DNA of 64,000 nucleotides from contig NZ_JAIQYY010000010.1 of assembly GCF_020181035.1 (NCBI RefSeq), positions 291,149-355,148 on the forward strand. The letters are read 5' to 3'. The notes beneath the pieces are model-generated. The model saw only the letters and a list, made by a program, of their open reading frames with translations. It was not told the origin of the DNA and searched no databases. Origin of the DNA: Streptomyces sp. CoH27. GTDB lineage: Bacteria > Actinomycetota > Actinomycetes > Streptomycetales > Streptomycetaceae. Within the stretch, counting starts at the first letter, position 1, and every line of letters begins with the position of its first letter. Shown here in pieces: positions 22,976 through 31,316 of this stretch. The translations under genes and the position numbers were made by a program.

Positions 22976-23710
22976 ATGAGCCCCGCCGAAGGCGACCGTG
23001 ACCCCCAGCGCATCCTGATCGTCGACGACGAGCCGGCGGTACGCGAGGCGCTCCAGCGCAGCCTCGCGTTCGACGGGTACGACACGGAGGTGGCCGTCGA
23101 CGGCGCGGACGCGCTGGAGAAGGCCACCGCCTACAAGCCCGACCTGGTCGTCCTCGACATCCAGATGCCGCGCATGGACGGCCTGACCGCGGCCCGCCGC
23201 ATCCGGGGCGCCGGCGACACGACACCGATCCTCATGCTCACCGCCCGGGACACGGTCGGCGACCGGGTGACCGGACTGGACGCGGGTGCCGACGACTACC
23301 TGGTCAAGCCCTTCGAACTGGACGAGCTCTTCGCCCGCATCCGCGCCCTGCTGCGCCGCAGCTCCTACGCGGCCGCCGCGCTGCCCGACGTCCAGGAGGA
23401 CGAGGCGCTCACCTTCGCCGACCTGCGCATGGACCTCGCGACCCGTGAGGTCACCCGGGGCGGCCGGCAGGTGGAGCTGACCCGCACCGAGTTCACTCTC
23501 CTGGAGATGTTCATGGCGCACCCGCGCCAGGTCCTCACCCGGGAGCAGATCCTGAAGGCGGTGTGGGGCTTCGACTTCGAGCCCTCGTCCAACTCCCTCG
23601 ACGTCTACGTCATGTACCTGCGCCGCAAGACCGAGGCGGGCGGCGAGCCGCGCCTGGTGCACACGGTCCGGGGCGTGGGGTACGTGCTGCGCCAGGGCGG
23701 CGCCGAGTGA
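22976..23710 (+). CDS. OmpR/PhoB-type response regulator
   Basis: This 244-residue regulator has a receiver domain with acidic pocket DDE, the phosphoacceptor Asp in [12 protein letters not shown] (near residue 60), conserved Thr in LMLTARD and Lys in YLVKPFE. The winged helix follows ([20 protein letters not shown] and [12 protein letters not shown]). Its stop overlaps the sensor kinase start (GTGA), so the two form a cognate pair. The stimulus is unknown. Confidence 0.95.
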
Positions 23711-25167
23711 GGAAGCTGCTCCGCCGGTACCGCTCCCTGCCCATCCGCGCCCGGCTGGCCATGCTGGTCGCGGCGGCGGTGGCGTTCGCGGTGGCTGCGG
23801 TGTCGGTGACGTGCTGGTTCATCGTGCAGGGGAAGCTGTACGACCAGCTGGACGGCGATCTGCAGAAGTCGCTGCGCGGCACCTCGCAGTTCGGCCAGCT
23901 GCAGTACACGCTCGACAACTGCAGCAACGCGCCGGCGACCAACACGCTCCTTCAGGACCGGTACTCCCAGGTGGTCACCGAGGACGGCAAGGTCTGTCTC
24001 ATCGCGGGCGCCTCGGGCACGATCAAGGTCACCCAGGCCGACAAGTCCGAGATCAAGAACCTGGACACCCGCAAGATCTACTTCCGCAACGGGGTGGACG
24101 CACAGGGCAACGAGCTGCGCGTGCTCACCCGCCCGCTGCTGCCCACCTCGACGTCGAGCGGGGGACCCGGACCCAACGTCGGCGTCATGGTCGCCATCCC
24201 GCTCAGGAACACCGAGAAGACCCTCAACGACCTGGCCCTCATCCTCCTCCTCGTCTCCGGCATAGGAGTACTCGGCGCGGGCGCCGCCGGCCTGGCCGTG
24301 GCCCGTGCGGGCCTGCGCCCGGTGGACAAGCTGACCGAGGCCGTGGAGCACGTGGCCCGGACCGAGGACCTGACCATCCGGATCCCGGTGGAGGACGACA
24401 GCGAGGACGAGATCGCCCGCCTCTCCCGGTCCTTCAACTCGATGACGGCGTCCCTGGCCAGCTCCCGCGACCTCCAGCAGCAGCTGATCGCCGACGCCGG
24501 CCATGAGCTCCGTACGCCCCTGACGTCGTTGCGGACGAACATCGAGCTGCTCACCCGCAGCGAGGAGACCGGCCGCCCGCTCCCGCCGGCGGACCGCAAG
24601 GCGCTGCTGGCCTCGGTGAAGGCCCAGATGACCGAACTGGCCTCGCTGATCGGCGACTTGCAGGAACTGTCCCGCTCGGAGGGCCAGCGCGGGGAACGGC
24701 TCCAGGTGGTACCGATGCTGGACACCGTGGAGGCCGCCCTGCGCCGCGCCCGCCTGCGCGGGCCGGAGCTGACGATCACGGCGGACCTGGAGCCCTGGTA
24801 CGTCCGCGCCGAGCCCTCCGCCCTGGAGCGGGCGGTGGTCAACATCCTCGACAACGCGGTGAAGTTCAGCCCCGGGGCCGGCACGGTCGAGGTGCGGCTG
24901 ACCGGCGGGGTGCTGACCGTCCGTGATCACGGCCCCGGCATCCCCGAGGACGAACTCCCGCACGTCTTCGACCGCTTCTGGCGCTCACCGAGTGCGCGCG
25001 CGTTGCCGGGCTCGGGCCTGGGTCTGTCCATCGTGGCCCGTACGGTGAAGCAGGCGGGCGGCGAGGTCACCCTGACGCCCGCGGAGGGCGGCGGCACGGT
25101 GGCGACGGTACGGCTGCCGGGGGCGCCGACGCCACCGCCGGAGACGCCGCAGGCCGAGACTCCTTGA
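23707..25167 (+). CDS. Two-component sensor histidine kinase
   Basis: This 486-residue kinase has a membrane helix near residues 15-37, an extracellular sensor of about 140 residues containing two Cys, a second helix ([20 protein letters not shown]) and a HAMP domain. The HisKA domain has phospho-His in [12 protein letters not shown], and the ATPase domain has N box [16 protein letters not shown] and GLGLSIV. It phosphorylates the upstream regulator, with which it is translationally coupled. A Pro-rich tail follows. A pectinesterase relic begins directly downstream. Confidence 0.95.
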
Positions 25168-27342: not shown

Positions 27343-27990
27343 TTGACCGCTCTCGCACAGGAGAGGCCGCAGGCCATGTCCCAGGCGCAGTCCGAAACAT
27401 CGAACGCAATCGACCTGGATGAGGTCCTGTGGCAGGCATGGAAGGCCATGGATCTCCCCGAGGGCTACCACGCGGAGATCATCGAGGGAGCCATCGAGGT
27501 GTCGCCCACCGGTCGCTATGCCCACAGCCAAATCGTCTTTCTCCTCAAGGAGGCGCTGGGCGACTTCCTGAAGGGCGGTGACTTCGCCGCCCGAAGCGAC
27601 ACGAACATCATCCATGAGCGAAGCGCGTGGGTGCCGGACTTGTTTGTCGTCGCCAGAGACCCTGAGCGCTACGTGACCGACGATGGTCTAGGTCTGACGG
27701 CCGCGAGCGTACGGGTGGTCTTCGAAGTCACCTCGCCCGGCCACCGGAACCTGAAGCGCGACCGCGACCGCAAATGCCGCGAGTACGCCTGTGCCGGCAT
27801 CCCCGTCTACGTACTCATCGACGACTACGACGAGCAGGGCACCGTCACCCTCTTCACCGGCCCCCGTCCCGACAAGGCCGACTGGGAGGACATCCACCGC
27901 GTCCCCTACGGCACCGAGGTCACCATCCCGGAAGGCCCCGCCAAGGGGTTCGTCATCGGTGAGGCCATCACCGGGCCCAAGCGGAGCTGA
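27343..27990 (+). CDS. Uma2-family (DUF820) putative endonuclease
   Basis: This 215-residue protein has the PD-(D/E)XK-type Uma2 core: GYHAEIIEGAIEVSPTGRYA, WVPDLFVVARD and VRVVFEVTSPG, followed by basic helix residues ending KCREYACAGIPVYVLID. Uma2 proteins are abundant in actinobacteria and of uncertain role. TTG 27343 follows AGAGGAGGTGCCACC at good spacing; ATG 27376 is the alternative. It stands alone, convergent with the ABC exporter gene, which ends 15 bp away. Confidence 0.85.
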   Translation: MTALAQERPQAMSQAQSETSNAIDLDEVLWQAWKAMDLPEGYHAEIIEGAIEVSPTGRYAHSQIVFLLKEALGDFLKGGDFAARSDTNIIHERSAWVPDLFVVARDPERYVTDDGLGLTAASVRVVFEVTSPGHRNLKRDRDRKCREYACAGIPVYVLIDDYDEQGTVTLFTGPRPDKADWEDIHRVPYGTEVTIPEGPAKGFVIGEAITGPKRS

Positions 27991-28004: not shown

Positions 28005-29789
28005 TCACCACCTGAGGATCATCGTGTCCTCCGGTGATGACGCCCCGGTCGCCGTCTCCGGCAGCGGGGCCGCCAGGCGGGCGTACGTGCCGTCGCGGGC
28101 GATGAGTTCCGTGTGCGTTCCCGTCTCCACCAGCCGCCCCCGTTCGACAACCAGGATGCGGTCGGCGTCGGGGGCGAGGGACAGGTCGTGGGTGATCATG
28201 ATCGTCGTACGGCCGGACATCAGGCGGCGCAGGGGCTGCACCACCTGGCGGGCCGCCACCGCGTCCAGGCCGGCCGTCGGCTCGTCCAGGACCAGGACCG
28301 GGGAGGTGCGCAGCATCGCGCGGGCGATGGCAATGCGCTGGAGCTGGCCGCCGGAGAGGGCGGCGGTGCCGGGGGCGATGTGGGTGTCGTAGCCGTCGGG
28401 GAGCGCGGTGATGAAGTCGTGCGCGGCCGCGTTCCGGGCCGCCCGCTCGATCTCGTCCGCGCTCGCGCCGGGTCGGCCGCAGGCGATGTTCTCGCGGACC
28501 GTGCCGTTCAGGATCAGCGTCCGCTGGGGCAGCAGGGTGATCTGGTCGCGCAGGAAGCGCAGGGGTACGTCGGTGAGGGGCACGCCGTCCAGGGTGATCG
28601 CGCCGGCCGAGGGGTCGTAGAAGCGGGTGAGGAGAGCGGCGAGGGTGGACTTGCCGGCGCCGCTCGGGCCGGTGATCACGATCAACTCGCCTGACTGCGC
28701 GGTGAGTTCGATGTTCCGCAGGGAGGCTCGGCGGGCGCCCGGGTAGCGGAAGGAGACCCGGTGGAAGGCGAGCCTGCCGTGGACCGGCCAGGCCGGGACC
28801 GGGGTGGTGGGGTCGGTGACGGCCGGTTCCGCGTCGAGGATCTCGCCGATGCGGCGGGCGCCGGCGGTGGCCGCGGTGACCGTGAGGCCGAGCCGGCCGA
28901 GGTTGCGGACCGGCGGGTAGAGGTAACCCAGGAACGCGGCGAACGCGAGGAGTTGACCGAGGGTCATCCGGCCGGCGGAGATCTCCCACACGCCGAAGCC
29001 GATGACCGTGAGCACGCACAGCGTCTCGACGACCTCGACGCACTGCTCGTACATCTCGCTCAGCCGCGCCCCGCGCACGCTCGCGCGCAGCCAGGCGCGG
29101 GCCTCGCGGTCGAGCCGCCGCTCCTCGTCGCGCTGCCGGTTGTACGCCTGCGTCAGGACGACGTTGCCGAGCGACTCCTCCACCACCGACGTGATCGCGC
29201 CGTCCGCGACCCGGCCGTCCCGGGACGCCTCGGCGATACGGCCGGAGAAGCGGCGGGCGGCGAGCAGGAACAGGGGCGCGAGGACAAAGGTGGCCAGCGC
29301 CAGGTCCCAGCGCAGCCAGAAGGCGGCGGTGGCGTAGAAGACGGCCGAGAATCCGGCTGACACGGTTCCTACGACGCCGGAGACCACGAGCTGCTCGATG
29401 GACTCGACGTCTCCGGTGAGCCGTTCGACCAGGTCACCCTGCCGGTGCCGCTGGAAGAAGTGCGGGGGCAGGTCCTGGACGTGCCGGAAGACGGCCGCGC
29501 GCAGCCGCAGGACGAATCTCTCCGCCGTCCAGGTGGCCAGCGAGTTGCCCAGGTAGCCGACGAGCGCGGCGAGCACGGCCACGCCGAGCCAGGCACCGGC
29601 CGGCCCCCAGAAGGCGGCGAGCGAACCGGCCTTCAGGGCATGGTCGGTGAGCTGGGCGAACAGCAGGATCGCGGCGGTCTCGGCGAGCGCGGCCACGACC
29701 ACGCACGCCACGATCGCCCCGAGCCACTTACGGTCGCCGCGAGTCAGCGGCCAGAACCGGCGGAAGGCCTCGCGGGACTCCCTCAGCAT
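28005..29789 (-). CDS. ABC exporter, fused membrane and ATPase domains
   Basis: This 594-residue half-transporter has six N-terminal membrane helices (residues 20-310) and an ATPase domain: Walker A GPSGAGKST near residue 380, signature LSGGQLQRIAIARAML, Walker B VLVLDEPT, and the H-loop His in MITHD. It would homodimerise and export a substrate. It has no C39 peptidase domain that would cleave double-glycine leaders. Immediately upstream on the same strand are two paralogous Lys/Pro-rich mini-peptides, separated from it by a strong hairpin, so export of those peptides is the obvious hypothesis. AGGAAGGG precedes ATG 29789. Confidence 0.92.
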   Translation of the reverse strand: MLRESREAFRRFWPLTRGDRKWLGAIVACVVVAALAETAAILLFAQLTDHALKAGSLAAFWGPAGAWLGVAVLAALVGYLGNSLATWTAERFVLRLRAAVFRHVQDLPPHFFQRHRQGDLVERLTGDVESIEQLVVSGVVGTVSAGFSAVFYATAAFWLRWDLALATFVLAPLFLLAARRFSGRIAEASRDGRVADGAITSVVEESLGNVVLTQAYNRQRDEERRLDREARAWLRASVRGARLSEMYEQCVEVVETLCVLTVIGFGVWEISAGRMTLGQLLAFAAFLGYLYPPVRNLGRLGLTVTAATAGARRIGEILDAEPAVTDPTTPVPAWPVHGRLAFHRVSFRYPGARRASLRNIELTAQSGELIVITGPSGAGKSTLAALLTRFYDPSAGAITLDGVPLTDVPLRFLRDQITLLPQRTLILNGTVRENIACGRPGASADEIERAARNAAAHDFITALPDGYDTHIAPGTAALSGGQLQRIAIARAMLRTSPVLVLDEPTAGLDAVAARQVVQPLRRLMSGRTTIMITHDLSLAPDADRILVVERGRLVETGTHTELIARDGTYARLAAPLPETATGASSPEDTMILRW

Positions 29790-29831
29790 CGACTGCCCTT
29801 CCTTCCTTCTCCACAGCTGTGGACACAGGCC

Positions 29832-29879
29832 GAGGCGGGGCCACCGGTACGACCACGCAGTAACCGGTGACCCCGCCTC
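29832..29879 (-). terminator. Hairpin between peptide gene and ABC exporter
   Basis: Arms 29832-29848 and 29863-29879 are complementary over 17 bp with one mismatch and a 14-base loop. It starts 14 bp after the peptide stop and lies 43 bp before the exporter start. A partial terminator here would give much more peptide mRNA than transporter mRNA. Confidence 0.8.
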
Positions 29880-29892
29880 ACGACAACCTGGC

Positions 29893-30009
29893 TCAGTGCT
29901 TGTCGCCGATCGGGCGACGCCTCGGCGCGGGCTTCTTCGGCGCCGGCTTCTTGTGCTCCGGGGCGGGCTTGCGATGCTTCTTGACCGGGGCGAGCCCGCG
30001 GAAAGACAT
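29893..30009 (-). CDS. Cationic Lys/Pro-rich peptide A (38 residues)
   Basis: This 38-residue peptide starts MSFRGLAPVKKHRKPAPEHK and continues with KPAPKKPAPRRR and PIGDKH. It has 13 Lys/Arg and two acidic residues. It is clearly paralogous to peptide B: both share MSFR(x)(I/L)APVKK at the start, KPAPKKP in the middle and a P(I/V)G ending. AAGGGGAATTCC precedes ATG 30009, good evidence of translation. There is no Cys, no double-Gly leader site and no secretion signal. It lies upstream of an ABC exporter. Possible roles are an exported antimicrobial or signalling peptide, or a nucleic-acid-binding basic peptide. Confidence 0.72.
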   Translation of the reverse strand: MSFRGLAPVKKHRKPAPEHKKPAPKKPAPRRRPIGDKH

Positions 30010-30063
30010 GGAATTCCCCTTCCTGGTTCCTGTGATTCCTGTGGTTCCTATGATTTCCAGGGA
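30010..30063. repeat. 9-bp repeats between the two peptide genes
   Basis: On the reverse strand the spacer has about four units of the form AGGAAYCAY, ending in the AAGGGGA sequence that serves peptide A. Each unit resembles a ribosome-binding site, so ribosome loading ahead of peptide A could be affected by copy number. Confidence 0.6.
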
Positions 30064-30183
30064 TTACTTGTGGCCGACCGGGCGCTTGGGCTCGGGCTTC
30101 TTCGGCGCCGGCTTGCGTCCCTGACCAGGCTTGCCCGGCTTGCAGTGCTGCTTCTTGACGGGGGCGATCTTCCGGAAGCTCAT
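30064..30183 (-). CDS. Cationic Lys/Pro-rich peptide B (39 residues)
   Basis: This 39-residue peptide starts MSFRKIAPVKKQHCKPGKPG and continues with QGRKPAPKKPEPKRPVGHK. It has 13 Lys/Arg and one Glu, with a single Cys at position 14. GAAAGGAAACGCAG precedes ATG 30183. It is the first gene of the leftward unit B, A, ABC exporter. The paralogy with peptide A, with conserved ends and a variable centre, argues that both are real genes. No modification enzyme is seen nearby. Confidence 0.72.
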   Translation of the reverse strand: MSFRKIAPVKKQHCKPGKPGQGRKPAPKKPEPKRPVGHK

Positions 30184-30280
30184 CTGCGTTTCCTTTCGCG
30201 TCGTTCGCTTTCGACATGGAAAACATTACGGGATTCACGAGCCGGAAAAAGCCGATTCCGATGAGACCTCAATGAAATAC

Positions 30281-30301
30281 CCCTGTGAGCAATTCACAGG
30301 G
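30281..30301. promoter_or_regulatory. Palindrome upstream of peptide operon
   Basis: Perfect 8-bp arms CCCTGTGA and TCACAGGG are separated by five bases. The site lies in a comparatively AT-rich gap, 98 bp upstream of peptide B and 89 bp upstream of the divergent mshD gene. The symmetry fits a dimeric repressor or activator site. Confidence 0.5.
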
Positions 30302-30389
30302 ATATTGTGGAACCGCGGCGGCATTCACACAGGTTTTATCGGGGGCCGGCGCACCGCTCCGGCGCCGCCCGACCCGTACCCTCGTACGC

Positions 30390-31316
30390 ATGAGCAGCGA
30401 CGACACCGTACGGGCCTTCCCCGCCCGATCCATCGAGACCTACTCCGCGCTCAGCCCCGAGCAGGCCGAGGCCGTGGGCGAACTGCTGGGCGAGGCGGCC
30501 CGGACCGACGGGCAGCAGCCGGTGTCCGAGCAGGGGCGGCTGCAGTTGCGCGGGGGTGCCCGGGAGGGCGTCTCGCATCTGCTGCTGACCGTCGACGGCG
30601 AACTCGTGGGCTACGCCCAGCTGGAGGACACCGACCCGGTGGAGGCGCCGGCCGCCGAGCTGGTCGTCCACCCCGCGCACCGTGGACACGGGCACGGCCG
30701 GGCGCTCGGCTCCGCCCTGCTCGGCGCCTCCGGCAAGCGGCTGCGGGTGTGGGCGCACGGCGGACATCCCGCCGCCCGGCATCTCGCCCAGGTGCTCGGC
30801 CTGACCCTGTTCCGCGAACTGCGCCAGATGCGGCGAGCGTTGAGCGACCTGGAGCTGCCCGACCCGAAGCTGCCGGAGGGCGTGACCGTGCGCGCCTTCG
30901 TGCCCGGCAAGGACGACTCGGCCTGGCTCGCGGTCAACGCAGCCGCCTTCGCCCACCACCCCGAGCAGGGTTCGCTGGCCCAGCGGGACCTCGACGACCG
31001 CAAGGCCGAGCCGTGGTTCGACCCGGCCGGGTTCTTCCTCGCCGAGCGGGACGGGGAGCTGGTCGGCTTCCACTGGACGAAGGTGCACGCCGAGGAGGGG
31101 CTGGGCGAGGTGTACGTCCTCGGGGTGCGCCCCGGCGAGCAGGGCGGCGGCCTCGGCAAGGCCCTCACCACGATCGGCCTGCGCCACCTCGCCGCCCAGG
31201 GTCTGCCGACGGCGATGCTCTACGTCGACGCCGACAACCTGGCGGCGGTGTCGGTGTACGAGCGGCTGGGGTTCACCACGTACGAGACGGACCTCATGTA
31301 CCGCACGGAGACCTGA
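30390..31316 (+). CDS. mshD: Mycothiol synthase (MshD)
   Basis: MshD acetylates Cys-GlcN-inositol with acetyl-CoA, the last step of mycothiol synthesis, giving the main low-molecular-weight thiol of actinobacteria. The 308-residue protein has two tandem GNAT domains. The active C-terminal one includes VYVLGVRPGEQGGGLGKALT, and the N-terminal one includes LVVHPAHRGHGHGRALG. The C-terminal VYERLGFTTYETDLMY is typical. It is divergent from the peptide-exporter unit and its 3' end overlaps the opposite membrane-protein gene by 23 bp. Confidence 0.95.
   Translation: MSSDDTVRAFPARSIETYSALSPEQAEAVGELLGEAARTDGQQPVSEQGRLQLRGGAREGVSHLLLTVDGELVGYAQLEDTDPVEAPAAELVVHPAHRGHGHGRALGSALLGASGKRLRVWAHGGHPAARHLAQVLGLTLFRELRQMRRALSDLELPDPKLPEGVTVRAFVPGKDDSAWLAVNAAAFAHHPEQGSLAQRDLDDRKAEPWFDPAGFFLAERDGELVGFHWTKVHAEEGLGEVYVLGVRPGEQGGGLGKALTTIGLRHLAAQGLPTAMLYVDADNLAAVSVYERLGFTTYETDLMYRTET

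Follow-up and report, generated by a model that had tools for sequence, protein, structure and literature searches.

What do two short genes encode that precede an ATP-binding cassette (ABC) half-exporter gene in Streptomyces sp. CoH27, and does the exporter serve their products? The genes are located on the minus strand of a 64,000-nucleotide stretch of this genome, referred to here as the window (G000:C2:291149-355148), and encode the Lys/Pro/Ala-rich paralogues peptide A and peptide B. Reading down the minus strand, the cassette is composed of a regulatory region, peptide A, peptide B, a hairpin and the exporter gene (Table 1). Judged from sequence, the cassette is probably a peptide-secretion operon in which unmodified peptides are exported by a dedicated exporter, a reading in which we have good confidence. 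The sequences establish its operon layout, the pairing of peptides with exporters, a common N-terminus and the way in which peptide type follows exporter phylogeny.

Pairing of the peptides with the exporter

A seven-row peptide alignment was searched against 392 Streptomyces genomes. The peptide was found in 55 genomes, of which 54 were kept; the match in G214, which sits inside a 392-amino-acid frame with no exporter nearby, was dropped. An exporter or its remnant is present alongside the peptide in 53 of the 54 genomes, and a near-full-length exporter is located downstream in 51, counting G347 (only residues 2-352 matched). The exporter is broken in G279 and G165, and none lies within ~6 kb in G193. 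The initial annotation had proposed a dedicated pairing, and peptide homologues do adjoin exporter homologues. Nor does the exporter always occur without the peptides: among the matches listed, a peptide gene is located upstream of all 55 full-length exporters with at least 72% identity, of which those of G332 and G185 have one stop inside the match each. The peptides of these 55 exporters fall into overlapping groups: 49 were recognized by profile and pattern, that of G384 by profile and by eye, and that of G088 in part, whereas five (G079, G189, G396, G408 and G093) were overlooked by the profile. Two partial exporters are left over, one cut by a contig end (G032) and one broken (G174), which keeps only an apparent peptide C-terminal end. 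All 18 loci that the peptide alignment matched in named genomes belong to Streptomyces. Seven of these were set aside as duplicates of loci already found in the G genomes, giving 68 window-type loci in total.

Sequence and constraint of the window-type peptides

The two short open reading frames (ORFs) and the exporter have the starts, lengths and strand first assigned to them, as seen by inspection of the sequence and ORFs, and sequences resembling a ribosome-binding site (RBS), GAAAGGAAA and GGAAGGGG, precede the two peptides as annotated. A total of 101 distinct window-type peptides, including the two of the window, were gathered, nearly all of which adjoin homologous exporters. Both ends, described at first from two peptides, recur in this set. 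The first eleven residues are M-[SA]-F-[HRK]-K-[IVL]-[AVT]-P-V-K-K with few exceptions, and the usual C-terminal end is R-R-P-[VI]-G-H-K/Q-G. The K/P/A-rich middle varies in length, K/P/A/R make up 66% of residues, and Trp is present in one of the 101 peptides.

The constraint set (101 of 104 distinct DNA sequences) was picked by a pattern fixing M1, S/A2, F3, P8 and V9, so that invariance in it is partly circular. The codons of Pro8 escape this circularity and comprise CCC in 48, CCG in 52 and CCT in one peptide. Synonymous and nonsynonymous differences (pS and pN) are 0.25 and 0.09, respectively, at the N-terminus of the 101 peptides, and 0.39 and 0.24, respectively, around the C-terminal RP[VI] in 99 peptides.

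By pattern, one copy is present in 40 loci, two in 21, three in six and four in one; the pattern overlooks some copies, and five were found in G092 by profile search. Tandem copies are nearly identical in some genomes and diverged in others (among them L091, L095 and L052). The near-identical copies would represent gene conversion or recent duplication.

No GG/GA leader cleavage site was seen on inspection of either window peptide, as stated in the initial annotation, and its remark that no maturation enzyme is visible holds for the few neighbours scanned. With neither a leader site nor a modifying gene seen, residues 1-9 could still be removed. Pfam and NCBIfam gave no credible match for the 12 peptides scanned, and PHROGs gave none for peptides either (weak matches at 0.19, 0.77 and 0.32 in these searches); PADLOC left the peptides unmatched and gave only a general ATPase likeness for the exporter, and an Rfam search of the locus at E up to 1 gave no match.

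The wider exporter family

The peptide-exporter unit is real, and the initial annotation described one branch of a larger family. Short low-complexity ORFs lie ahead of exporters down to ~37% identity, some of which come from other families of actinobacteria; these ORFs are K/P-rich, poly-Arg, H/D/G/R-rich, GYGR, HHKK or R/W-rich. Most of these ORFs share a short N-terminal motif, and the peptides share little past the first 8-9 residues.

Exporters of 66-71% identity were considered as peptide-free, and this was rejected. Each of those examined has an RBS-bearing short ORF with a similar N-terminus and a different body (e.g., MSFKKLAPLPPKPKSKQLPPPPKPK.., MSFRKVFPRRRRRDHDD..RRRRRRRFRRGRGRG.. 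and MTFKAFFPRNRS..GYGRGYGRGYGR..), one of which (G199) is visible only in a longer stretch. Most Streptomyces exporters of 44-48% identity that were examined are preceded by peptides with MAIFSxLFPAxHRDH-like starts and His/Asp/Gly/Arg-rich bodies. A third peptide group is represented by MSFAKIMLAKKAKKK..HHKKHHHKKHKK. Relatives outside Streptomyces contain MPLKKILPPPPKPK.., ..GWGCRRRRRRRWC.. (the latter also in Nonomuraea gerenzanensis) and MARSxIFSALQPAR..RRRRRRRRRR. In a class-wide sample, 13 of 296 genomes were positive, seven of them outside Streptomyces; with a second query, 18 of 394 were positive, ten of them outside Streptomyces. A plasmid search gave one record, from Nonomuraea gerenzanensis, in which no gene is annotated at that site. 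The genome of the window itself contains four peptide-exporter pairs (C2:319156, C2:140724, C8:98630 and C16:24941), and its next ABC exporter has 36% identity. The peptides of the three further pairs (C2:140724, C8:98630 and C16:24941) are K/P-, H/D/R- and K/H-rich.

An ORF with the motif is located within 900 nt upstream of 60/62 exporters with at least 72% identity, 17/20 with 64-72% and 22/29 with 42-64%, whereas it precedes 1/18 exporters below 42%. Peptide absence at the motif-negative exporters of 42-64% identity was mostly rejected by eye, K/H-, R/W- and poly-Arg-rich ORFs being present. A motif-free test asked for an ATG ORF of 28-80 amino acids with an RBS and a body entropy below 3.4 bits within 800 nt upstream, and excluded four exporters of intermediate score. 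Such an ORF was found at 112 of 117 family exporters compared with 1 of 16 other ABC exporters, and stricter duplicate removal gave the same result. The counts were 109 and 1 at 3.2 bits, and 99 and 0 at 3.0 bits. Three of the five misses (L104, L120 and L141/L221) carry a window-type peptide that failed the RBS pattern, start choice or distance.

Peptide type tracks exporter phylogeny. A first tree separates the family, with full support, from 18 other exporters. In a tree of 86 rows, for which one in four window-type rows was retained, eleven peptide labels need 10 changes, which is the minimum; shuffled labels need 53.7 on average, and none of 200 shuffles is as low. This count relies on labels that were assigned by eye to L200, L234, L185, L189 and L221 after their ORFs were inspected; before relabelling, eight labels needed 9 changes with a minimum of 7. 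Before thinning, 22 of 149 tree sequences shared a block with another, some being fragments of a single gene; this inflates the row numbers and the shuffled means and leaves the number of changes unaffected. Both trees were quick, and some long rows in them are unsurely placed.

The exporter

The exporter contains the Pfam domains ABC_membrane (24-291) and ABC_tran (357-506). In agreement with the first description, its 25 Pfam matches include no peptidase family, and there is little room for such a domain. Among the 25 NCBIfam models listed of 211 matching the exporter, none attains its own cut-off, and the nearest is MsbA (TIGR02203, 426.4 bits against a cut-off of 602). The nearest solved structures by sequence in PDB are ABCB-type and MsbA exporters.

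Regulatory region and hairpin

The palindrome reported upstream (CCCTGTGAgcaatTCACAGGG) was located at 30281-30301, inside an unusually long region of ~120 bp ahead of the first peptide that is conserved in relatives. The conserved elements, taken from 67 distinct upstream regions, are the palindrome, a -10-like TARTGT and a near-invariant TTTTCC-RTGTCGAAAGCGAAC, the last of which falls outside the extracted stretch in six. The palindrome arms vary in matched fashion in some relatives (e.g., CCCTGAGA../TCTCAGGG in L105), and the core upstream element at up to 3 mismatches has a single occurrence in the genome. ATGTCG (30217) is likely a transcript start or the start of a leaderless mini-ORF. 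By eye, a separate exporter clade B also has RTGTCG preceded at five bases by TARTGT/TAGGTT, which may point to a common regulator or to a leaderless mini-ORF. An additional candidate, ATGTCGAAAGC as the opening of a conserved leader peptide, was rejected because its frame is lost after a few codons. Sigma-70 and terminator scans of the locus found none.

The hairpin described between peptide B and the exporter is present as a 17-nt inverted repeat (29832-29848/29863-29879) and is kept in relatives. The terminator scan gave nothing at 29832-29879, and no U-tract follows the hairpin. Downstream of the last peptide, a strict pattern recognized 51 distinct hairpins, and variants were seen by eye in all 14 failing loci. 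These hairpins have a fixed lower stem and a changing upper stem, and most begin 9-23 nt past the stop; a few are more distant, in part because a further peptide copy went unrecognized. None of the 28 loci with several peptides has the hairpin pattern between its tandem copies. For the gap between peptide and exporter, the folding z-scores have a median of -3.5, with 55 of 61 below -1.5 (mononucleotide shuffles only), and none of these 61 gaps contains a U-tract. The hairpin is a probable partial terminator or mRNA stabilizer.

Table 1. Features of the peptide-exporter cassette and adjoining genes (positions in the window)
Feature	Position	Strand	Description
Conserved promoter/regulatory region	30218..30339	(-)	ATAAAACCTGTGTGAA..GGTTCC..palindrome..GAGGTCTCATCGGAATCGGC..; alignment of 67 distinct upstream regions
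Palindrome	30281..30301	(.)	Arms CCCTGTGA-gcaat-TCACAGGG; operator- or hairpin-like
-10-like TAATGT	30223..30228	(-)	5 nt ahead of ATGTCG (30217); near-invariant columns TARTGTTTTCCRTGTCGAAAGC in relatives
Peptide A	30064..30183	(-)	39 amino acids, MSFRKIAPVKK...KPAPKKPEPKRPVGHK; with RBS
Peptide B	29893..30009	(-)	38 amino acids, MSFRGLAPVKK...KPAPKKPAPRRRPIGDKH; with RBS; paralogue of peptide A
GC-rich hairpin, 17-nt arms	29832..29879	(-)	Begins 13 nt past peptide B stop; without U-tract
ABC half-exporter	28005..29789	(-)	594 amino acids, transmembrane domain (TMD) and nucleotide-binding domain (NBD), without C39 peptidase domain; Pfam, NCBIfam, PDB sequence relatives
Mycothiol synthase gene	30390-31316		Divergent, upstream of cassette; TIGR03448 397 bits, cut-off 163
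Uma2-type gene	27343-27990		Downstream of exporter; Pfam

Gene neighbourhood

MshD, Uma2 and DUF397 were recognized next to the cassette by Pfam and NCBIfam scans of the window. Within ~6 kb of the 68 window-type loci, a mycothiol synthase-like gene cluster and a 5'-nucleotidase cluster were each found in 48, a sensor kinase in 30 and a response regulator in 27. Because the same neighbour clusters recur, the window-type cassette appears to be mostly at a stable chromosomal place with no evident mobile element. Seven representatives of the recurring clusters were run on Pfam, the remaining clusters being left unnamed; the matches were a response regulator, a kinase, a 5'-nucleotidase, LmeA and a pectinesterase, and two had no match. 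In the window, a response regulator and a sensor kinase are encoded at 22976-25167 (+) in a CssRS-like gene order. In S. lividans, CssRS (SCO4156-SCO4155) is reported as a system for secretion stress (PMC3498368), and the resemblance of the nearby pair to it is positional. From its position, the pair could be identical to CssRS, and through this neighbourhood the cassette might be tied to secretion stress.

Proposed mechanism and alternative explanations

From these sequences we infer translation, transport, tag recognition, a function of the hairpin, disorder of the peptides and an extracellular role, in the following scheme. A regulated promoter would drive one to five short peptide genes, and the conserved hairpin past the last of them would probably hold exporter expression below peptide expression. 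The half-exporter, presumably a homodimer, would recognize the conserved first 8-11 residues of the peptides as a tag, namely MSFHK-I-x-PVKK in the window type and M-x(1-2)-hydrophobic-x-x-hydrophobic-x-P in most of the family. The unmodified, disordered and mostly polybasic peptide would then be moved out of the cell, where its composition would matter over its exact sequence, most likely to bind anionic surfaces. The use of the peptides would most likely be antimicrobial or competitive.

The charge of the cargo was calculated as K+R minus D+E for 138 distinct family peptides picked by motif and entropy, with lengths of 31-70 residues. Net charge is positive in 127 and at least +5 in 123, with a median of +12, and 25 contain five or more His. 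Family exporters have acidic TMD residues at E37 (67/68 rows), E132 (68/68) and E255 (68/68), whereas the 18 other exporters have an acidic residue at these positions in 0, 1 and 0 cases, respectively; the mean TMD charge is +3.9 in the family versus +8.0 in the others. The conserved acidic residues are consistent with a basic cargo without proving it.

Several results weigh against an export system for antimicrobial peptides. Neither an immunity gene nor a modifying enzyme was recognized among the seven neighbour proteins scanned. PDB sequence searches with two peptides were empty, and therefore no antimicrobial resemblance is demonstrated. The initial annotation spoke of a cationic pair, but neither term holds throughout the family, and copies number from one to five per locus. 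Most family peptides are positively charged, but 11 of 138, all of the MAIF, His/Asp/Gly/Arg type, have a net charge of 0 or below, so that one anionic target cannot explain all. The family TMD also conserves clade-specific basic residues, which weakens the charge argument. The peptide is kept with a truncated, frameshifted or absent exporter in six of the 68 loci (L045, L050, L052, L100, L102 and L109) and is therefore tolerated without it. Such loci may be in decay, and by eye a deletion in L102 also cuts the transcript-start region and an earlier peptide copy. Two of the 117 family exporters (L190 and L260) have no convincing peptide, and the control set is small, with 16-18 exporters from nine genomes.

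The short ORFs might be spurious, being short, low-complexity, without a credible database family and set in GC-rich intergenic DNA. The comparative data make this very unlikely: there are 101 distinct peptides with conserved ends and synonymous codon turnover at an invariant Pro, and a similar ORF occurs at only 1 of 16 control exporters. The ORFs could instead encode regulatory leader peptides, with stalling or attenuation on Lys/Pro-rich codons and the hairpin together controlling an exporter that moves something else. Their place ahead of the exporter, their Pro/Lys-rich bodies and the conserved intervening hairpin would suit such control. However, tandem copies are present in at least 28 of 68 loci with the hairpin after the last copy and in none of the 28 between copies, the N-terminus is conserved more strongly than the region near the C-terminus, and the same slot holds bodies as unlike as GYGRGG and HHKKHHH; we regard leader peptides as improbable. 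Co-inheritance with an exporter that is MsbA/ABCB-like by sequence would also be expected of intracellular or membrane accessory partners, or of nucleic-acid binders beside an exporter whose true substrate is a lipid or drug. This too seems unlikely, since the median hydrophobic fraction of the bodies is 0.22, at which a membrane segment is not expected, and their extreme divergence against the slower change of the exporter resembles cargo more than a subunit.

A less distant alternative keeps the same export and changes the use: the peptides would serve the aerial hypha or cell wall as surface or matrix polyelectrolytes, as metal binders (His-rich) or by coacervation. The low-complexity bodies shift freely while composition stays, the His/Asp/Gly-rich and GYGR-rich types fit a single killing mechanism poorly, four different pairs are present in one genome, and the neighbours scanned include no recognized immunity gene. 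On the other hand, no link to a developmental regulator is shown, and the minority distribution (54/392) with losses makes a core developmental function unlikely for the window type. We consider this use a real possibility that falls short of even likelihood.

Secretion of unmodified peptides by a dedicated exporter thus remains our preferred reading. A broader proposal is more tentative: a modular "one tag, many bodies" secretion in actinobacteria, in which one ABC exporter family moves disordered peptides without modification, their bodies having taken on several low-complexity chemistries in the course of divergence. It is likewise speculative to see in these chemistries (Lys/Pro, poly-Arg, His/Lys, His/Gly/Asp, Gly/Tyr/Arg and Arg/Trp) a bacterial equivalent of the linear antimicrobial peptides that animals and plants produce. 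The latter include proline-rich, histatin-like, His/Gly-rich and Arg/Trp-rich peptides, and the likeness is of composition only.

If the preferred reading is true, Streptomyces and relatives secrete a small-peptide class likely overlooked by annotation and by mining for bacteriocins and ribosomally synthesized and post-translationally modified peptides, because its genes are short, low-complexity and without marker enzymes. A short N-terminus that stays constant while the bodies vary freely would provide a natural export tag, which might also serve to secrete other unstructured peptides, and the recognition of disordered polybasic cargo by an ABC half-exporter would become testable. The clean exporter clade provides a handle for genome mining.

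Comparison with known systems

Leaderless class II bacteriocins of the aureocin A53 and lacticin Q type are similar in being short and often strongly cationic, and in being encoded in single- or multi-peptide operons with adjoining transport genes. They are also unmodified and have no cleavable leader, which may hold for the cassette peptides as well. The Trp-containing cationic core of aureocin A53 is absent from the window type (Trp in 1/101), no PH-domain or Yip1 protein was recognized at the cassette, and the cassette has a lone fused TMD-NBD half-exporter with a seemingly disordered, low-complexity cargo. No description of these peptides was found in open-licence PMC full texts. The nearest is a 2024 survey of Actinomycetota leaderless bacteriocins, which mined aureocin A53-like peptides (PMC11580447).

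Peptidase-containing ABC transporters (TIGR01193 and TIGR03796), which carry a C39 domain and export bacteriocins or ribosomally synthesized, modified peptides, also adjoin a short peptide gene. Unlike these, the window exporter has no peptidase domain, its peptides have no double-glycine site, and it scores 269 and 283 bits against cut-offs of 524 and 853, respectively.

In class I/III lanthipeptide, lasso peptide and SapB clusters, as in the cassette, a half-exporter free of leader peptidase lies beside a small peptide gene; an intergenic hairpin damps downstream expression in these clusters, as it would in the cassette. These clusters differ in that no synthetase, cyclase or radical enzyme gene was recognized among the cassette neighbours scanned.

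The MsbA/ABCB-type lipid and drug exporters share the domain order and give the best sequence matches, whereas the window exporter scores under the TIGR02203 cut-off (426 versus 602 bits) and has a clade-specific N-terminus (FRRFWP) and acidic TMD residues. The new element, as read from the sequences, is the extent: one exporter clade, a short N-terminal tag in most members and many low-complexity bodies.

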